Source of the DNA: Cryomorphaceae bacterium
GTDB lineage: Bacteria > Bacteroidota > Bacteroidia > Flavobacteriales_D > SKUL01
Direction of reading: 5' to 3'
NCBI GenBank assembly: GCA_007695365.1
Contig: REDV01000079.1
Location: 1 to 44,534, forward strand
Length of the DNA: 44,534 nucleotides
Of the stretch, positions 10,592-18,475 are shown one piece after another. The position numbers and the translations under genes are program-made. How positions within the stretch are numbered: position 1 is the first letter of the stretch; every line of letters starts with the position of its first letter. Under the pieces are notes generated by a model, which was not told the DNA's origin, ran no database searches, and saw nothing but the letters and a program-made list of their open reading frames with translations.

Positions 10592-10767
10592 TGTGATGTA
10601 TTTGATTTCCGATTGTTGGATTGAATGCTGAATGAGCCCGCAAGTTACGCAGCTTCACCTGAAGTGCCCCAGTATATTTTATTGGAGCGGCACATTACGA
10701 GGATAATTGGGATGATCGGGATTTTGATAGGAATTTAACTACATTCATGCCAATCAACCCAGTAGCC

Positions 10768-12579
10768 ATGAGACTCTATCTTGTTCTGATATTTACCTTC
10801 TCATTCAGTGTTCTTTATGCACAGAAAACAGATTCTGGTTATACCTTGGTTTTTGACCGGGAAAGTACTGTTGACTCGCGAAAAGAAGCGGCATACGCAA
10901 TGGGATTAACGGATTTCGCAGACCTACACCCTTACTCAATGCTTGCGGTTCGGGGCGACGAGATGCCTTCCTCTGACTTGTTGGTAGTTTTTGGTGTCAA
11001 GAGCATTGGCGGCTTTTACATGAAAGGTGAAAACACATTTGGGGCAGAGACAGGCGAGTTGTTTGCCGTGCTCAATCAAGGCGTTGATGCCGGGCGTGCT
11101 CGAGCGCTTTGTGACCGCCTCAACCTGAAAGCACCTGTTTCCAATGCTTTTCTGCCTCATATTCTGAAAATTGAAACCGGGTTGTATGTAAATCACAACG
11201 AGGTAGCTCAGGAGCTGGAGCGCAGCGGCTTGTTCAAGCTGGTGGTTCCGCGGGTCATTTTTTCGGTATCTGACTGCTCCGTGAACGACCCACACTTTCA
11301 CCGCCAGTGGTCCTTAAAAAACAATGGTACCGCCCTCCAGGGAAACGGAACACCTGGGGCTGATATTGACGTAGAACTCGCCTGGGAAATCACGACTGGT
11401 AACGCTGATATTGCTATTGCTATTCTCGACAGCGGTGTGGATACACTTCACCCCGACTTAAGCAATAAGCTTTTACCGGGATACGACGCGATGGATGGAG
11501 AAACCCAGGGGTACCCGGTACCGTCATTTGCCAGCGATGGCCATGGAACAGCTTGTGCCGGAATCGCAGCCGCCGAAACCGACAATGGTGAAGGTGTTGC
11601 CGGCGTGTGCCCTGAATGCATGTTGATTCCCGTACGTGTGTTTACCTATGTTGAATTATTTGGACAGGTCATTCCGTTTTCAGACGCTGAGTCTTTTGTG
11701 AATGGCATCAGCTGGCAGTGGCAAGTGGCCAACGCTGATGTTTCGAGTAACTCGTGGGGCTTAACAGATGACATGCTGGCGCTCTTTCCGGGGCAGGATT
11801 TGCTGGTAAACGAAGCCATCGACGCTGCGTTGAATCAAGGTCGCGACGGGCTGGGTCTTATCATGGTATTTAGCAGTGGTAATACCGGTGATACCGATGT
11901 TGAACCGATATGGCCGTCTCGCTTGCCCGGCACTTTTGCAGTGAATGCTACAAGTATGTGTGATGAACGAAAGTCGCAGACCTCTTGCGACGGCGAAAAC
12001 TGGGAGGGCAACACCGGCCCCGGGCTGGATGTATCGGCTCCGGGAGTGCGTATTTCCACCACCGATATGGTAGGCGCTGACGGGTACCACAGCAGCAACT
12101 ACTATCATTTCTTTAATGGAACCTCTGCCGCGTGCCCCATTGTAGCCGGTGTGGCCGGGCTTGCGCTCTCACTGGACCCAGGCCTGAGCCGCCAGTCATT
12201 GGAGTCGGCATTGCGTCGTGGTTGCGAAAAAATAGGCGGGTACAATTACGACACCAATACTCCTGACGGCACCTGGAGCGCAGAAACAGGCCATGGGCGG
12301 ATCAATGCGCACATGGTGCTGCTTGAAGTTCCTGCCCTCAATGTGCAGGAGGCATACCACACTGGGGTTATTCACTTGAATCGTGGGGCGGAGCATGAAC
12401 TCATTGTAGAGAGCGGATTGGCTTCCTGGTGGGTGTTTGACTCGATGGGGCGGCTGGTTATGACGCAAGGGGAGAGCAACAACCTTATTTTACGCAGGGG
12501 TGATTTTGCGTCAGGCTTGTACATGGCAACCTGGCAGAGCGGAAACCAAAACGGTGTGGTGAAGGTCTTGATTCCCTGA
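10768..12579 (+). CDS. S8 subtilisin-like peptidase with T9SS C-terminal sorting domain
   Basis: The ATG at 10768 gives a compact signal peptide (MRLYLVLIFTFSFSVLYA); an ATG at 10747 adds seven residues. The 603-residue protein has an N-terminal propeptide-like region (about 20-175) and a subtilase domain (about 180-500). The triad is complete: Asp221 (AILDSGVD), His259 (DGHGTACAG) and Ser453 (NGTSAACP). The last 80 or so residues look like a type A sorting domain, with WWVFDSMGRLVMTQ, FASGLYMATW and a final VVKVLIP. The enzyme should cross the inner membrane by Sec and the outer membrane by the type IX system, ending on the cell surface or outside. It starts 176 bases from the divergent S9 peptidase gene. 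Substrates are unknown. Confidence 0.92.
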   Translation: MRLYLVLIFTFSFSVLYAQKTDSGYTLVFDRESTVDSRKEAAYAMGLTDFADLHPYSMLAVRGDEMPSSDLLVVFGVKSIGGFYMKGENTFGAETGELFAVLNQGVDAGRARALCDRLNLKAPVSNAFLPHILKIETGLYVNHNEVAQELERSGLFKLVVPRVIFSVSDCSVNDPHFHRQWSLKNNGTALQGNGTPGADIDVELAWEITTGNADIAIAILDSGVDTLHPDLSNKLLPGYDAMDGETQGYPVPSFASDGHGTACAGIAAAETDNGEGVAGVCPECMLIPVRVFTYVELFGQVIPFSDAESFVNGISWQWQVANADVSSNSWGLTDDMLALFPGQDLLVNEAIDAALNQGRDGLGLIMVFSSGNTGDTDVEPIWPSRLPGTFAVNATSMCDERKSQTSCDGENWEGNTGPGLDVSAPGVRISTTDMVGADGYHSSNYYHFFNGTSAACPIVAGVAGLALSLDPGLSRQSLESALRRGCEKIGGYNYDTNTPDGTWSAETGHGRINAHMVLLEVPALNVQEAYHTGVIHLNRGAEHELIVESGLASWWVFDSMGRLVMTQGESNNLILRRGDFASGLYMATWQSGNQNGVVKVLIP

Positions 12580-12706: not shown

Positions 12707-12953
12707 GCGCCCTCGTGGAATGCAACAGCCGTTATGAAAAGAACGTTTGCTTTCTAACGTCAAACTCCCTGCCATTGTTATCCAACTACCGGAAGCAACG
12801 TTGTATTTAACACTTTTTGCGGCCAAGCCGCCACTTTCCGTTGAAAGTTCAGTAGTAAAACGAACGTAACCTGCTGAAATTGCCTGAGAAACTGTAAAAT
12901 TATGTTAAGCCTGAAATGTGATTAAATGGGTAAGGGCCCGTTTTGGAAGGGAC
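12707..12953. other. Intergenic stretch without recognisable gene
   Basis: Between the short tandem repeats and the universal stress promoter I see no open frame with coding character, no tRNA and no strong hairpin. It is probably untranslated spacer. Confidence 0.5.
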
Positions 12954-12983
12954 TTTGGTTGGGGTTAAAAAAATGTATATTTG
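12954..12983 (+). promoter_or_regulatory. Bacteroidota promoter of the universal stress protein gene
   Basis: TTTG (12954-12957) and TATATTTG (12976-12983) are separated by 18 bases. This is a full match to the -33/-7 consensus TTTG-N17..19-TAnnTTTG. Transcription would start near 12990, about 20 bases before the ATG at 13009, which also supports that start over the longer open frame. Confidence 0.75.
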
Positions 12984-13008
12984 GCGGGTAAACCTTTCCA
13001 TCACGACC

Positions 13009-13848
13009 ATGAGTAAAACAATCATCGTTCCTACTGACTTTACACCCATCGCAGAAAATGCGCTGGAGCACGCCATCGCTGTTGCCAAAACCATTGGCGG
13101 AGAAATTGCGCTTCTTCACATCGTTCCTAAAAAATCGCATGTGGAGGAGGGCCGCACCAAGCTTAATATGTTAATTGAGCGCTTCGCTGAAATCAACCAC
13201 GTAATCAGCATCAAACCGGTTATCCGTGTGGGTACAATCTTTGAAGACATTGGAGACGTAGCTGAAGAGCTTGAAGCCGAATTGATTCTAATGGGCACAC
13301 ATGGGCTTCGCGGTATGCAGTTCATTACCGGAAGCCACGCGTTGAAAGTTATTACAAGCAGTTCAACGCCTTTTGTGGTTGTGCAAGAGAGCAAAATCAA
13401 AGAAAGCGGATACGACGACATCATTGTTCCTTTGGACTTAAGCAAGGAAACCAAACAAAAGCTCAGCATTGTGGCCCAGATGGCTAAATACTTCAAGTCC
13501 AGGGTACACCTTATGATTCCGCGCGAGAATGATGAGTTCCTGAAAAACCAGCTTGACCGCAACCTCAACTATGCCAAACAGTATTTCTCTGATGAGGGAA
13601 TTGAGTTTACCACCAAGGTAAGCGAAGAAAAAAGTGGCGACTTTGACGAAGGGATTGTGGCGTATGCCAAGGAAATCAACGCTGACCTGATTGCGATTAT
13701 GAACCTGGCAGCTAACTCACTTGTGGGCATGTTGGGCAGCGGTTATGTTCAGCGCATCCTCACCAACGATGCGCAGGTACCCGTATTGATTGTGAATCCC
13801 ATCAGCACCACGATTTCCAAAACGTTTTTCCGCGCAATGGGCGGTTAA
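13009..13848 (+). CDS. Tandem-domain universal stress protein (UspA family)
   Basis: The start at 13009 (MSKTIIVPTDFTP) follows a strong promoter. The 279-residue cytoplasmic protein contains two Usp folds (about 1-145 and 150-275). The first carries IIVPTDFTPIAENALEHA and a GTHGLRGMQFITGS nucleotide-loop motif that resembles ATP-binding Usp proteins. The second starts DDIIVPLDLSKETKQKLS and has a less canonical loop (NLAANSLVGMLGSG). Usp proteins help survival under starvation or stress by unclear means. The gene stands alone, converging with the HD-domain gene; its terminator lies inside the 3' end of that gene. Confidence 0.9.
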   Translation: MSKTIIVPTDFTPIAENALEHAIAVAKTIGGEIALLHIVPKKSHVEEGRTKLNMLIERFAEINHVISIKPVIRVGTIFEDIGDVAEELEAELILMGTHGLRGMQFITGSHALKVITSSSTPFVVVQESKIKESGYDDIIVPLDLSKETKQKLSIVAQMAKYFKSRVHLMIPRENDEFLKNQLDRNLNYAKQYFSDEGIEFTTKVSEEKSGDFDEGIVAYAKEINADLIAIMNLAANSLVGMLGSGYVQRILTNDAQVPVLIVNPISTTISKTFFRAMGG

Positions 13849-13902: not shown

Positions 13903-14487
13903 TCAATAAGCACTGAGGCGGCTCTTTATCTCCTGGAGATGAGCCGCCTTTTTAACTTGCCTCAATCTGATGGCAGACGGCGTAAAGTAGCGGTGAAGGT
14001 TGAAAAACTTAACTTGTATTTCGTCCCACTGTTTATCGGTTTTTATGATGCCATAGTGCATGAGCTCTACCTTAAGGCTATCAGCTATTGGGTGAAAGTC
14101 GTCTCTTCCGAGGTAGTCAAGGTCTGCGTCGCAAATTATTTCGTCCAGCTTGTTGTACGGGTGGTGTGGGACTCGAGTGGCTAAAATCATCTGGCCAATG
14201 GTGGCTACTTCCTCCGGGCTGTATCCGAATTGAGGCAACATCTCTGAGGCTATACCCGCGGCGAGCTCTTCGTTGTCCATGTATTGCTCACAAAAACCAA
14301 TGTCGTGAAAAAGGGCGGCGGTGCGCACCATGATTGTGTCGTGCTTTGAAACACCTTCAAGGTAGCAAAGTCTGTCAGCCGCGCGAACCACGTCAGCAGT
14401 GTGTTTGATATCATGGTAAATCAACACATCCTCAAGCTCGTGAGCAAGCTTGGCAAACACCCAGTTTTCTGCTTCTTTGTAGTGCAT
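13903..14487 (-). CDS. HD-domain phosphohydrolase
   Basis: The 194-residue soluble protein shows the HD metal-binding pattern: a histidine near 25-29 (YHDIKHT), the His61-Asp62 doublet in AALFHDIGF, His108-His109 (RVPHHP) and an aspartate near 120-122 (ICDADLDYLGR). Such proteins hydrolyse phosphate esters of nucleotides or signalling nucleotides; the substrate cannot be read from sequence. It begins 32 bases after the SpoIIE-type phosphatase gene on the same strand, so it is probably the fourth gene of that signalling operon. Its last codons contain the hairpin that terminates the opposing universal stress transcript. Confidence 0.85.
   Translation of the reverse strand: MHYKEAENWVFAKLAHELEDVLIYHDIKHTADVVRAADRLCYLEGVSKHDTIMVRTAALFHDIGFCEQYMDNEELAAGIASEMLPQFGYSPEEVATIGQMILATRVPHHPYNKLDEIICDADLDYLGRDDFHPIADSLKVELMHYGIIKTDKQWDEIQVKFFNLHRYFTPSAIRLRQVKKAAHLQEIKSRLSAY
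13916..13953 (+). terminator. Intrinsic terminator of the universal stress gene, inside the HD gene's 3' end
   Basis: AGGCGGCTC (13916-13924) pairs perfectly with GAGCCGCCT (13941-13949), and the plus strand continues as TTTTT (13949-13953). It terminates the rightward universal stress transcript and at the same time encodes the last residues of the leftward HD protein. Confidence 0.85.
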
Positions 14488-14519
14488 TATCGTTTAGCAA
14501 CAGGTAAAATTACGCATTC

Positions 14520-16289
14520 TTAAAAACCCACACCCACCATCAGGATATCATCTACCTGTGGGTGTCCCTCCATCCATGTATCGAGCCTTAACATGAACTC
14601 CTTTTGCTGCTCTTCCATGGGTAAGTGATGGGCAGACAGTATCATGCTTCTGAACTGCTTATACATGAACTTCCTCCCTTTTGGGCCGCCAAACTGATCT
14701 ACAAAACCATCGGAAAAGAGGTACACCTTATCTCCCGGCAACATCGGAACTGTGTGTTGCTCAAAAACCACGTTGTCGCGTTCAATACCTCCAATTGAGC
14801 ATTTGTTGGGTTTCAGTTCCTGAAGCGCACCGTTGCGCACAAGGTAGAGTTGAATATTGGCCCCTGCGTACTCGAGCGTACGTGTTCGGGTATCAAACAC
14901 GCACAGGGCCATATCCATGCTGTCGCTTACGTTGTTCTCCTCGTTGGTTTTGTGCAGGTTTTGCTGCGCTATGAGGTGAAACGACGACAGAATCCGCTGT
15001 GGAGTAAGGTTTGCTTCGTTATCCTTTACCGCCTGATTTAAACCATTGAATCCCACAAGGCTCATAAATGCTCCTGGTACACCGTGCCCCGTGCTGTCAA
15101 CCACTGCAAAAAGTTGTTTGTTCTTCAATTGCCTGAACCAATAAAAATCGCCACTGACGATATCGCGCGGTTTGTAAAACACAAAGCTGTCCGGAAACAT
15201 TGTGCTGATTTCGCGCATGGGCGGCAGGATGGTTTCCTGCAGCCGTTTGGCCGAACGGATACTGGCAGTTACATCCTGGTAGAGTTCTTCTATTTGGTGG
15301 CTTTTTTCAACCACCTCCTGGGTTCGTTCTCTTACCTGACGTTCGAGGTTCCGTTCATTGTCGCCAAGTTCGCGAGCCATTTTCAGCAAAGCTGCGCCCA
15401 GTTTGTCTTCGTTGCTCAGCGGTTGGTAGGGGTAATCAAAGTTTCCCTGCCCCACTTTCTCGGCAAATTCGGTAGTGTGTTTTACGCTATCTATAAGCGT
15501 ATTGAGTGCTTGCGCCATCTCTCCTATCTCATCGCGGGTAATTTTAACCGGCTCTTTGGGCACCACTCCCCTACCCATAGAGAGCAGTGCTGTTTTAAGC
15601 TGGCGCACGGGCCTCACAATGGATCTTCCTGTAAGAAGAGCAATAAGAATACCCCCCAGAAAAAGCCCTATTCCAAACGACCGGAGGTACACCTGTAACT
15701 GGTCGAACCCGGCGTGCATCTCAGCGCTGTCCCGATCCACGCTTTTTCGGATTTTGATAATCAGGTTATTGAGGTCAAAAAGAATTTCTTTGGCCTTTTC
15801 GTCAATTACACCGCCCTCTTCGGCCAGATCGCGTGCATAGAACACATTAAAGTCCTCGTCGTAGCTGCGCATATCCGGCAATTCCTTTTTAACAATCTCG
15901 TAGAGCTTAAGGAGTTCATCAATCGATTTGGTAATTCTGTTCTTCTTGATAACGTCATTCTCATCCCATGCAAGTGCTATTTTGTTCAGGCCTGCAATGA
16001 TCTCCGGTAAATCCTCTTCGGTAATACGCTTCAGGGTGCGTTTTTCCTCGGTGTCTTCGCGGCTTTGCACAAAGGCCCAGTTGGTAATGAGCATTCGGGT
16101 GCGAATCACTTCATAGCGCAATTTTTCCAGCTGCTGCACCGACGGAATGTACACTTCATTGATGCGGTCGTTAATTCGGCGGGAATCTGTAAGGGTTTGG
16201 TTGGTAATAAGGAACACGAGCAAAATGCAGAGAATGATTACCCCGAAGCCAGTGTATAGCTTGCCTCCTATGGTAAACCGAAATTTCAT
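14520..16289 (-). CDS. Membrane sensor with HAMP domain and SpoIIE-type (PP2C) phosphatase domain
   Basis: The 589-residue protein has a first membrane helix at about 14-30, a helical extracytoplasmic sensor region (about 31-202), a second membrane helix at 203-221, a HAMP domain (222-274, with RPVRQLK and DEIGEMAQALNTL), a coiled coil (about 305-350) and a SpoIIE/RsbU-type phosphatase domain (about 365-589). Metal-binding acidic motifs are seen at VSGDFYW (Asp381), VVDSTGHGVPGAFMS (Asp398), LFSDGFVDQ and VDDILMVGV. Such phosphatases typically dephosphorylate STAS anti-anti-sigma factors. No STAS gene is adjacent. The gene starts 22 bases after the TPR gene, inside a YfiR-TPR-SpoIIE-HD operon. 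Confidence 0.92.
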   Translation of the reverse strand: MKFRFTIGGKLYTGFGVIILCILLVFLITNQTLTDSRRINDRINEVYIPSVQQLEKLRYEVIRTRMLITNWAFVQSREDTEEKRTLKRITEEDLPEIIAGLNKIALAWDENDVIKKNRITKSIDELLKLYEIVKKELPDMRSYDEDFNVFYARDLAEEGGVIDEKAKEILFDLNNLIIKIRKSVDRDSAEMHAGFDQLQVYLRSFGIGLFLGGILIALLTGRSIVRPVRQLKTALLSMGRGVVPKEPVKITRDEIGEMAQALNTLIDSVKHTTEFAEKVGQGNFDYPYQPLSNEDKLGAALLKMARELGDNERNLERQVRERTQEVVEKSHQIEELYQDVTASIRSAKRLQETILPPMREISTMFPDSFVFYKPRDIVSGDFYWFRQLKNKQLFAVVDSTGHGVPGAFMSLVGFNGLNQAVKDNEANLTPQRILSSFHLIAQQNLHKTNEENNVSDSMDMALCVFDTRTRTLEYAGANIQLYLVRNGALQELKPNKCSIGGIERDNVVFEQHTVPMLPGDKVYLFSDGFVDQFGGPKGRKFMYKQFRSMILSAHHLPMEEQQKEFMLRLDTWMEGHPQVDDILMVGVGF

Positions 16290-16311
16290 GCCGGGGAGGC
16301 CAGGGGCTTCA

Positions 16312-17235
16312 TTATTTGTTGGTTTGTTGGGTGTCCTTGAGCATTTCGCGGTATTTGTTCGCTTCCTCGTTGTTATTCAGGCTCAGGTAGATTCCCCTCA
16401 ACGCGATGAGCGTTTCTCTGCGCTTGGGGTCAAGTTCATGTGCTTTAAGCATAAAGGGAAGCGCCTCACGGAACAACTCCACACTTTCGGCCTGAACCTT
16501 TACAATAGTTGGTATTTGAGCCTCCGCATCAATTTGCTCAATACCATAAGCGCCTTCGTTGTACAGGTTGATGGCAGTGTTGTAATTCGCCCCATAGTTT
16601 TCGGGGTCAATCTCAAGTACAACTTTGTAATTATCCAGCGCTTTAAACAGGAATTCTTTGTGCTTGTTGCGATCCTGCTCGTAGATTTTTCTATTGCTGG
16701 TTGCCAGGGCTTTAAAGTAAGTAATGTCGCGCTCTTCAAAGTTGAATGACGGTTCAATTGCGCGTTGAAGGTCTTTATAGGCTGCGTAAAGCTCTTCAGA
16801 GCGATGAATGGTTTTAGGGTCGAGTTCGCGCATTACCACCACCGCATCATTGTAAAGGGAAGAGGCAAGGTAGCGCAGCGATTTCAAGTTGTTTTCTTCG
16901 TACGCATTGCCGGCATCCAGTTCCATGGAGCGCTTGTAGGATTCAATGGCTTTTTCCCTGTGGGAGTGCCGCAAAGCATCGTTTTTAGCCTCATTGAACA
17001 GGTCTTTGTATACGAAGCCACGGATGTGCCAGCTCATGGCCTCCTCTTTACCTTCTTCTGAAACCACAGCAGCATCAATGAGCGATGCCGCACGAGCATA
17101 GTCTTTTTGCTGATAAGCCTCGTAAGCCTGTATGGTGGTAGCGGGCTGGGCCTGCACAAGGGGTGCCGTCAACAGAGCCGCACTCAACAGTGTGCTGAAG
17201 AAGATCAGGTTGTATGTGAGCTTTTTCATACGCAT
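16312..17235 (-). CDS. Exported tetratricopeptide-repeat protein
   Basis: The 307-residue protein has a signal peptide (1-30, ending VQAQ) and then a chain of TPR-like helix pairs. These include YEAYQQKDYARAASLID, WHIRGFVYKDLF, YKRSMELDAGNAYEENNL, LDNYKVVLEIDPENYGANYN and LKAHELDPKRRETLIALRGIYLSL. TPRs mediate protein contacts, so a periplasmic scaffold or ligand for the sensor encoded next is plausible. Its ATG shares one base with the stop of the YfiR-like gene (TGATG), and the phosphatase gene begins 22 bases later. This is tight coupling that suggests one functional unit. Confidence 0.85.
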   Translation of the reverse strand: MRMKKLTYNLIFFSTLLSAALLTAPLVQAQPATTIQAYEAYQQKDYARAASLIDAAVVSEEGKEEAMSWHIRGFVYKDLFNEAKNDALRHSHREKAIESYKRSMELDAGNAYEENNLKSLRYLASSLYNDAVVVMRELDPKTIHRSEELYAAYKDLQRAIEPSFNFEERDITYFKALATSNRKIYEQDRNKHKEFLFKALDNYKVVLEIDPENYGANYNTAINLYNEGAYGIEQIDAEAQIPTIVKVQAESVELFREALPFMLKAHELDPKRRETLIALRGIYLSLNNNEEANKYREMLKDTQQTNK

Positions 17236-17798
17236 CAGTTTTCTACATGTAATGCGAGACCTTTCAATGACATGCCTACAAACAGGTTGTTTCGCTCTGC
17301 ATTGGGAACGCTCAATTCGAACTTTAGATTATCGTCAACCACAATAAAATTGATTGCAACCCCCTTTGTGAGGGCTCCCTTGTGGTGAGAAATGAGCAGG
17401 GTGCTTGTACCATTCACATAGCTAATTACATCATCGAGAGATGAGCTGAATTCGTTGTCAACAAACAAAATGTGGCAGGTGGTGAAGTTCTGCGTGTTAG
17501 AAATTTTGCGAATTTCTATGGGCTGGCTACCAATGGTTTTACCATTATACTTAGTAACCAATTGCTGGTACATACTGGAGCTCCCCATTACACCTATGAT
17601 GAAGTTGCCTTTTTTGAGATGATCGGGCCAATCTATCATCTTTGCAAAGTTGTAGATGTAACTGGCTTTGATGATGGCGGCAGTATCCTTTTCATCAAAG
17701 CGAGGTCCTTCAGGGTCGGTGGTAGGCGCAAAAGCCAACACCACCGACAATAGAGTCAGTACTGCCAAACACTTCAGAAAAGATACACCGCGCATCAT
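17235..17798 (-). CDS. YfiR-like (DUF4154) periplasmic protein
   Basis: The 187-residue protein has a signal peptide (about 1-22) and the DUF4154/YfiR pattern. It contains IIKASYIYNFAKMIDWP near residue 45, FIIGVMGSS, a segment around TCHILFVDNE, and SHHKGALTKGVAINFIVVDDNLKFELSVPNAERNNL near the end (only its parts need matching). In Pseudomonas, YfiR is a periplasmic repressor of the diguanylate cyclase YfiN. Here no GGDEF gene is nearby; instead the downstream membrane output is a SpoIIE phosphatase. The gene appears to be first in the operon, and no clear -7 box was found upstream. Confidence 0.85.
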   Translation of the reverse strand: MMRGVSFLKCLAVLTLLSVVLAFAPTTDPEGPRFDEKDTAAIIKASYIYNFAKMIDWPDHLKKGNFIIGVMGSSSMYQQLVTKYNGKTIGSQPIEIRKISNTQNFTTCHILFVDNEFSSSLDDVISYVNGTSTLLISHHKGALTKGVAINFIVVDDNLKFELSVPNAERNNLFVGMSLKGLALHVEN

Positions 17799-17919: not shown

Positions 17920-18420
17920 CTATCTGTGCGCAGAAGGCATGTTCTCCAGGTCGCGATCAAACAGGTACAGCCCTCCCTTATCATTTCCTATCATGTTGAG
18001 TTTATCCATGATGGTTCGGGCCTGTGCTTCCTCTTCAATCTGCTCAGAAACATACCACTGCAAAAAGTTGTGGGTGGTATAGTCCTTCTCTTCCAGGGTG
18101 GTGTGAACCAAGCCGTTGATTTCTTCTGTTACCTTGATCTCATGACCTAACAAAGATTCAAAAATATCACCCAGGCTTTTGAATTTAGCTGGTGGCTGCT
18201 TGAGGGCAGGCACAATAGCGTGCCCCCCACGTTCATTGATAAATCGCACCAGTTTGAGCATGTGCATGCGTTCTTCGTCAGACTGTGTGTAGAGAAATTT
18301 AGCAGTGCCATTGAAGCCCTGGGTTTCTGCCCATGAAGCCATTGAAAGGTAAAACTGTGAGCTGTCTGCTTCTACCTCTACCTGCCTGTTAAGCGCCTTT
18401 TCTATTTTTTTGGATAGCAT
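17920..18420 (-). CDS. Non-haem ferritin
   Basis: The ATG at 18418-18420 (MLSKKIEKALN) is the usual family start. The 166-residue four-helix protein stores iron as a 24-mer in the cytoplasm and oxidises Fe(II). Ferroxidase ligands are in place: Glu17, Glu50, His53 (DEERMH), Glu94 and Gln127 (EQIEEE). This is the FtnA type, not a haem-binding bacterioferritin. A full -33/-7 promoter lies just upstream (18445-18475), so the gene is transcribed alone and divergently from RNase R. Confidence 0.95.
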   Translation of the reverse strand: MLSKKIEKALNRQVEVEADSSQFYLSMASWAETQGFNGTAKFLYTQSDEERMHMLKLVRFINERGGHAIVPALKQPPAKFKSLGDIFESLLGHEIKVTEEINGLVHTTLEEKDYTTHNFLQWYVSEQIEEEAQARTIMDKLNMIGNDKGGLYLFDRDLENMPSAHR

Positions 18421-18444: not shown

Positions 18445-18475
18445 CAAAGTTAGGTTTTATCTGCCTACTAACAAA
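18445..18475 (-). promoter_or_regulatory. Bacteroidota promoter of the ferritin gene
   Basis: Read on the minus strand, TTTG (18472-18475) and TAACTTTG (18445-18452) are 19 bases apart. The predicted start of transcription is near 18438, giving a leader of about 18 bases before the ferritin ATG. Confidence 0.7.

Follow-up and report, generated by a model that had tools for sequence, protein, structure and literature searches.

The gene module described here is best explained as a SiaA-like phosphatase gated by YfiR and a TPR protein, which would pass an envelope signal to a SiaC switch; this reading, in which the signal flow is deduced from the parts, is given a probability of roughly 0.6. 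The module lies in the window, i.e., the whole analysed stretch of 44,534 nucleotides from a Cryomorphaceae bacterium of the order Flavobacteriales. Sequence comparisons indicate that it is a real, conserved module, whose parts and linkage are well supported. It apparently provides a conserved route from an envelope signal to a protein-phosphorylation switch in a cell with no detectable c-di-GMP enzyme. If true, periplasmic control by YfiR and the SiaA/B/C phosphorylation switch are joined in a GGDEF-less bacterium, and the sensor-bearing cluster, which roughly half of the species sampled from the order possess, receives a testable role.

The preliminary description of this DNA had placed four open reading frames on the minus strand, separated by −1, 22 and 32 bases; they were re-found at the same coordinates and with the same gaps (Table 1).

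Table 1. Features of the module and of its upstream flank, in window coordinates.
Feature	Coordinates	Strand	Properties
yfiR gene, YfiR-like (DUF4154)	17235..17798	-	187 aa; Pfam DUF4154 8.7e-31; N-terminal signal-peptide-like segment
tpr gene, all-TPR protein, predicted periplasmic	16312..17235	-	307 aa; AlphaFold, Foldseek; N-terminal signal-peptide-like segment
pp2c gene, membrane sensor phosphatase	14520..16289	-	589 aa; Pfam HAMP 2.9e-10, SpoIIE 1.3e-21
Sensor-domain coding segment, residues 28-206 of the phosphatase	15672..16208	-	unclassified, helical, periplasmic
hd gene, stand-alone HD protein	13903..14487	-	194 aa; Pfam HD 8.1e-5, just above cut-off
ferritin gene, upstream of yfiR	17920..18420	-	likely ATG at 18420; Pfam Ferritin 4.5e-39
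Bacteroidota -7 element match TAACTTTG	18445..18452	-	just upstream of the ferritin ATG; weak evidence

DUF4154 is present in 174 of the 299 genomes sampled from the order. The conservation sample consists of 60 loci fetched around it within the order. The YfiR, TPR and PP2C genes follow one another in the same order and on the same strand in 53 of these loci, which represent nine families; the gaps range from −68 to +7 bases between yfiR and tpr and from −8 to +71 bases between tpr and pp2c. The trio proteins of the relatives mostly share ~20–50% identity with those of the window, and since the order recurs despite this divergence, the arrangement exceeds what chance would produce. Gene-order conservation among relatives, proposed earlier as a check, is thus borne out, which supports the claim of an envelope signalling module with a PP2C-type phosphatase as its membrane output. 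The four-gene operon survives as a unit only in part: the three-gene core is conserved, whereas the HD gene is an accessory. The latter was rejected as a core member on the basis of the 60 fetched loci; a stand-alone HD gene after the phosphatase gene is seen only in the window's genus, and other families carry at this position a fused cyclase-HD gene, a convergent universal-stress-protein (Usp) gene, or something unrelated.

Some background synteny exists around the trio. In several families, ferritin, RNase R and Usp genes are conserved around the trio as well. Of the 53 trio loci, 46 have a ferritin gene upstream in the same orientation (44–52 bases from the trio in family f8), and in 22 the next gene downstream is a convergently oriented Usp gene. 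The trio genes could likewise be neighbours by inherited gene order only, with YfiR and the TPR protein exerting no control over the phosphatase. This is very improbable, however, taking into account that the trio stays tight in families f2, f8 and f10, where the flanking genes change, that the sensor domain of the phosphatase is rarely found without YfiR, and that outside the order it follows YfiR with another output. In the window itself, a double universal-stress-protein gene at 12943-13848 converges on the operon, and a subtilisin-like protease is encoded at 10747-12579, its C-terminus weakly matching the type IX secretion sorting domain. The nearest named public relative among the matches listed is the Flavobacteriales metagenome-assembled genome SKUL01000275.1.

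The ferritin gene is possibly part of the same transcription unit as yfiR-tpr-pp2c. The likely ferritin ATG is preceded, at a distance of 25 bases, by the Bacteroidota-type -7 element TAACTTTG, and no match to the element was found between ferritin and yfiR. The pattern occurs 25 times in the whole window against 29.6 expected and is not enriched over shuffles, so that co-transcription with ferritin is a suggestion only. Scans for sigma-70-type promoters and for terminators gave no more matches than in shuffles.

The sensor domain of the phosphatase is all-helical, spans about residues 31-205 between two transmembrane segments and forms a helical bundle in the AlphaFold model. No Pfam family was convincingly matched by it, and its assignment as a divergent CHASE8/YfiN domain was ruled out by the profile comparison (0.1% probability) together with the helical model. 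Consequently, the phosphatase is not a YfiN with a new tail. The sensor profile matches 145 of the 299 genomes, and 130 of the 150 individual matches lie within 3.5 kb of a same-strand YfiR gene; several of the other 20 are contig breaks or belong to genomes whose YfiR coordinates are unlisted. At the genome level, 140 genomes contain both sensor and YfiR, 5 the sensor only, 34 YfiR only and 120 neither, an association with a Fisher p of about 1e-44 by a statistic that ignores shared ancestry. In another order of the class, a protein with this sensor, HAMP and a GAF/PAS output is encoded directly after yfiR (L109:6568-9081; 77 bits on the sensor profile), and at L260:2601-4232 the same sensor and HAMP are joined to a GAF domain. 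Judged from these sequences, the helical sensor seems to be an input that is coupled to YfiR and able to serve varied outputs.

With 107 bits against a curated DUF4154 cut-off of 24.9, the YfiR protein belongs to this family, of which it is the only representative in the genome; on the NCBIfam TOL_0243 YfiR-like model it reaches 106 bits, under the cut-off of 125. For the TPR protein, the Pfam TPR matches are below cut-off, the AlphaFold model is a clear TPR superhelix with helices throughout (pLDDT 93.6), and the Foldseek matches are generic TPR proteins. Owing to their signal-peptide-like N-termini, both are read as periplasmic. YfiR represses YfiN (PMC3375315). In the window genome (3.52 Mb, 99.98% complete) the search for GGDEF proteins found none; the classical output from YfiR to a diguanylate cyclase is therefore unavailable, and action on such a cyclase elsewhere in the genome was rejected. 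HmsC-like redox sensing by paired disulphides is unlikely, since most YfiR relatives carry 0–1 cysteines. No YfiB-type outer-membrane lipoprotein is encoded beside yfiR, its neighbours being ferritin, TPR, PP2C and HD.

The preliminary description had set this operon apart by a YfiR output other than a diguanylate cyclase. Such outputs have already been published, though not with a phosphatase: divergent Yfi systems with histidine kinase, HPT, MCP or GGDEF-EAL outputs are described (PMC3375315), and a search of that text finds mention of neither PP2C nor TPR. At the YfiR loci scanned outside the order, the neighbours are CHASE8-HAMP proteins (mostly histidine kinases), a HAMP kinase or TonB receptors, and the trio was not seen. 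Furthermore, a protein of ~605 aa at L084:1385-3199 joins a YfiR domain to a histidine kinase (HisKA + HATPase_c), and YfiR domains lie inside proteins of this size also at L087:5344-7158 and L091:6818-8653. The systems that pair YfiR with CHASE8-HAMP kinases or kinase fusions (PMC3375315; L041, L045, L067, L113, L084) resemble the window in their non-GGDEF membrane output, but the window module has another sensor fold and, as its output, a phosphatase of the serine/threonine type. YfiBNR and HmsCDE (PMC2837407, PMC3375315, PMC5550408) likewise have a YfiR-family protein beside a HAMP membrane protein; in contrast to both, the window has no diguanylate cyclase, and its helical sensor is unrelated to CHASE8. 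A TPR protein takes the place where the OmpA-like YfiB stands in YfiBNR, and the window YfiR, unlike that of HmsCDE, is cysteine-poor and hence without HmsC-type paired disulphides. In the open-access literature searched, no description was found of a YfiR-TPR-PP2C operon, nor, behind YfiR, of a phosphatase output, a helical non-CHASE8 sensor or a dedicated TPR partner.

The phosphatase is laid out as a transmembrane segment, the helical periplasmic domain, a second transmembrane segment, HAMP (220-269), a linker and a PP2C domain at about 340-589 (AlphaFold pLDDT 85.8). On the SiaA model NF038263 it scores 235 bits, with the main match at residues 276-586, and misses by far the 700-bit cut-off for full-length SiaA because its sensor differs. 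By sequence it matches the solved SiaA PP2C domain 6k4e at 5e-41. Foldseek also returns the SiaA PP2C domain as the top match (8e-19, TM-score 0.89); RssB, SpoIIE and RsbU-type structures trail it by about nine orders of magnitude in E-value. The metal and active-site residues of SiaA named in PMC7647112, i.e., D457, D474, G477, D534, D600, G601, D604 and D653, align with D381, D398, G401, D459, D527, G528, D531 and D580, all of which are invariant in 43 relatives of the window phosphatase. By sequence, active-site residues and predicted fold, the phosphatase is SiaA-like; as only the catalytic half matches the model, it is not regarded as a SiaA orthologue. The SiaABCD system of Pseudomonas aeruginosa (PMC7647112, PMC8457831) thus shares with the window a HAMP-PP2C phosphatase with identical active-site residues, and the window genome also encodes a kinase of the SiaB type as well as SiaC bearing the NTSS phosphosite motif. 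It differs from SiaABCD in the periplasmic sensor, in the YfiR and TPR partners, in having siaB-siaC at another locus, and in the absence of SiaD or any GGDEF protein.

In that system, SiaA and SiaB act on T68 of SiaC (PMC7647112), and unphosphorylated SiaC activates SiaD through binding its stalk; DUF1987 proteins elsewhere are suggested to modulate other partners (PMC8457831). The window genome encodes three SiaC proteins, one of which adjoins a SiaB kinase scoring above the SiaB-family cut-off. The NTSS motif, which holds the phosphorylated threonine, is kept in two of the three, the third reading NIAS. SiaC is the likely target of the trio phosphatase. The preliminary description had regarded the wiring as lacking a described pathway. 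This stands insofar as the phosphatase output was not found described, but a SiaA-like phosphatase, SiaB and SiaC in one genome make the downstream part less obscure than it held. Most of the 40 fetched SiaC loci have SiaB beside SiaC. SiaA-type PP2C genes are located 6 and 24 bases ahead of siaB-siaC in L167 and L174 and within the siaB-siaC cluster in L163. No siaB or siaC was found beside the trio among the fetched loci, and both lie outside the window operon.

The distribution of SpoIIE proteins also bears on the substrate. In the 19 genomes of genus g34, these comprise only a near-universal type of ~410 aa and the trio phosphatase, alongside a single SiaC. Among genomes with the universal type as their only SpoIIE protein, ~38 have no SiaC and ~24 have one, mostly diverged; the latter render the argument by elimination helpful, not clean, and suggest that the ~410 aa type may act on SiaC too. 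Nearly all genomes of the order, some without SiaC among them, encode this type (L131:6554-7783). Of the 145 genomes with the sensor, 139 have SiaC, as do 107 of the 154 that lack the sensor; this comparison ignores shared ancestry. The window genome contains six other SpoIIE proteins, and the three that were checked score 168-211 bits on the SiaA model. The simplest reading is a hub in which one SiaB and a few SiaC proteins would be served by several phosphatases, that of the trio reading the periplasm.

Two small STAS proteins of the window genome are further candidate substrates, and SpoIIE/RsbU-type structures are among the Foldseek matches. It is conceivable that the phosphatase acts in the manner of RsbU on a STAS anti-anti-sigma protein, the output being a transcription programme instead of SiaC signalling. 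This is rather doubtful, since SiaA is by far the best fold match, SiaA-type PP2C genes adjoin siaB-siaC in this order, and the ~410 aa SpoIIE protein, kept in many SiaC-less genomes, would be the more natural STAS phosphatase.

Under the preferred SiaC reading, periplasmic YfiR and the TPR protein would set the state of the helical sensor, presumably by contact, and HAMP would relay this state to the PP2C domain. The latter would strip from SiaC, its probable substrate, the phosphate placed by the SiaB kinase, and one of the two states of SiaC would bind and control an effector. By analogy with YfiR and YfiN, from which the sign of control is borrowed, YfiR most likely keeps the phosphatase off until an envelope signal arrives; the TPR protein perhaps reads the signal that frees the phosphatase. 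The HD protein would be an accessory output gene of the module. An ABC-2-type transporter of 1020-1042 aa (ABC_tran + ABC2_membrane) adjoins siaB-siaC at L128:7926-11033, L167:6413-9475 and L174:6860-9988. It is convergent with siaB-siaC in the window genome (L128, where it has a TerB-like N-terminus) and follows these genes in the same orientation in two other families (L167, L174). This transporter is a candidate SiaC effector. The module opens a way to study the role of SiaC in cells that lack SiaD.

The best profile match of the HD protein is 2pq7, an uncharacterised HD hydrolase, and its match to the PDE9A profile is marginal (E 0.024 over 57 profile positions). The metal motif H29, H61-D62, D120 is intact, and invariant in alignment A4. 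The protein is ~45–54% identical to the C-terminal HD domain of class III cyclase proteins and scores 155-212 bits against complete domains of this kind. These cyclase-HD proteins combine a periplasmic beta-propeller, Y_Y_Y, class III cyclase and HD in ~1295 aa, with short versions of ~514 aa. An HD-profile scan of 84,980 species genomes gave at least 540 relatives, and 74 of the best 80 among them carry the cyclase fusion; two of the six stand-alone HD proteins in the best 80 have a class III cyclase gene nearby on the opposite strand. Such nearly constant fusion, comparable to that of GGDEF-EAL proteins, suggests a phosphodiesterase or a cyclase regulator. Going by sequence, the HD protein most likely either acts on cAMP or cGMP as a phosphodiesterase or regulates a class III cyclase; the marginal PDE9A match is compatible with the former but no proof of it. 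The Reg_prop / Y_Y_Y / class III cyclase / HD proteins (L044, L066, L205 and others) are alike in HD domain and, in three families, in operon position, but the window HD stands alone, without a cyclase or receptor part. A widespread cyclase-HD family is thus marked out, as is an unclassified helical periplasmic sensor domain.

In families f2, f8 and f10, the fused cyclase-HD gene comes after that of the phosphatase. It follows directly in 17 of the 53 trio loci, at 2-145 bases, and is one gene further on in another; seven class III cyclase matches are present elsewhere in the window genome. The phosphatase might accordingly control a class III cyclic-nucleotide enzyme, directly or via SiaC, in a cAMP/cGMP pathway of which only the HD half is encoded at the window locus. 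This is possible though unlikely: a cyclase-HD gene is lacking at this position in the majority of trio loci, among them those of family f9, most of the best 80 cyclase-HD loci (of at least 540) have no adjoining trio, and the window genome's own cyclases, as far as the six examined of the seven are concerned, fall outside the cyclase-HD clade. A combined scheme is doubtful as well. In it, the YfiR-TPR-gated SiaA-type phosphatase would control a class III cAMP/cGMP cycle via SiaC, joining a YfiBNR input to a SiaABCD switch free of c-di-GMP. The genome's Reg_prop cyclase L134 was considered as the partner of the HD protein in a split cyclase-HD; this is unsupported, as its cyclase domain groups with the genome's other cyclases outside the cyclase-HD clade, albeit with a long branch. 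The window genome has a second HD paralogue, a more distant one, at G000:C92:125009-125548 (L267; 77 bits on the A4 profile). Four tandem class III cyclase genes occupy L133:14-8447 in the same genome, the one that was domain-scanned carrying TPRs, and another small contig (L132) encodes class III cyclases related to this tandem.
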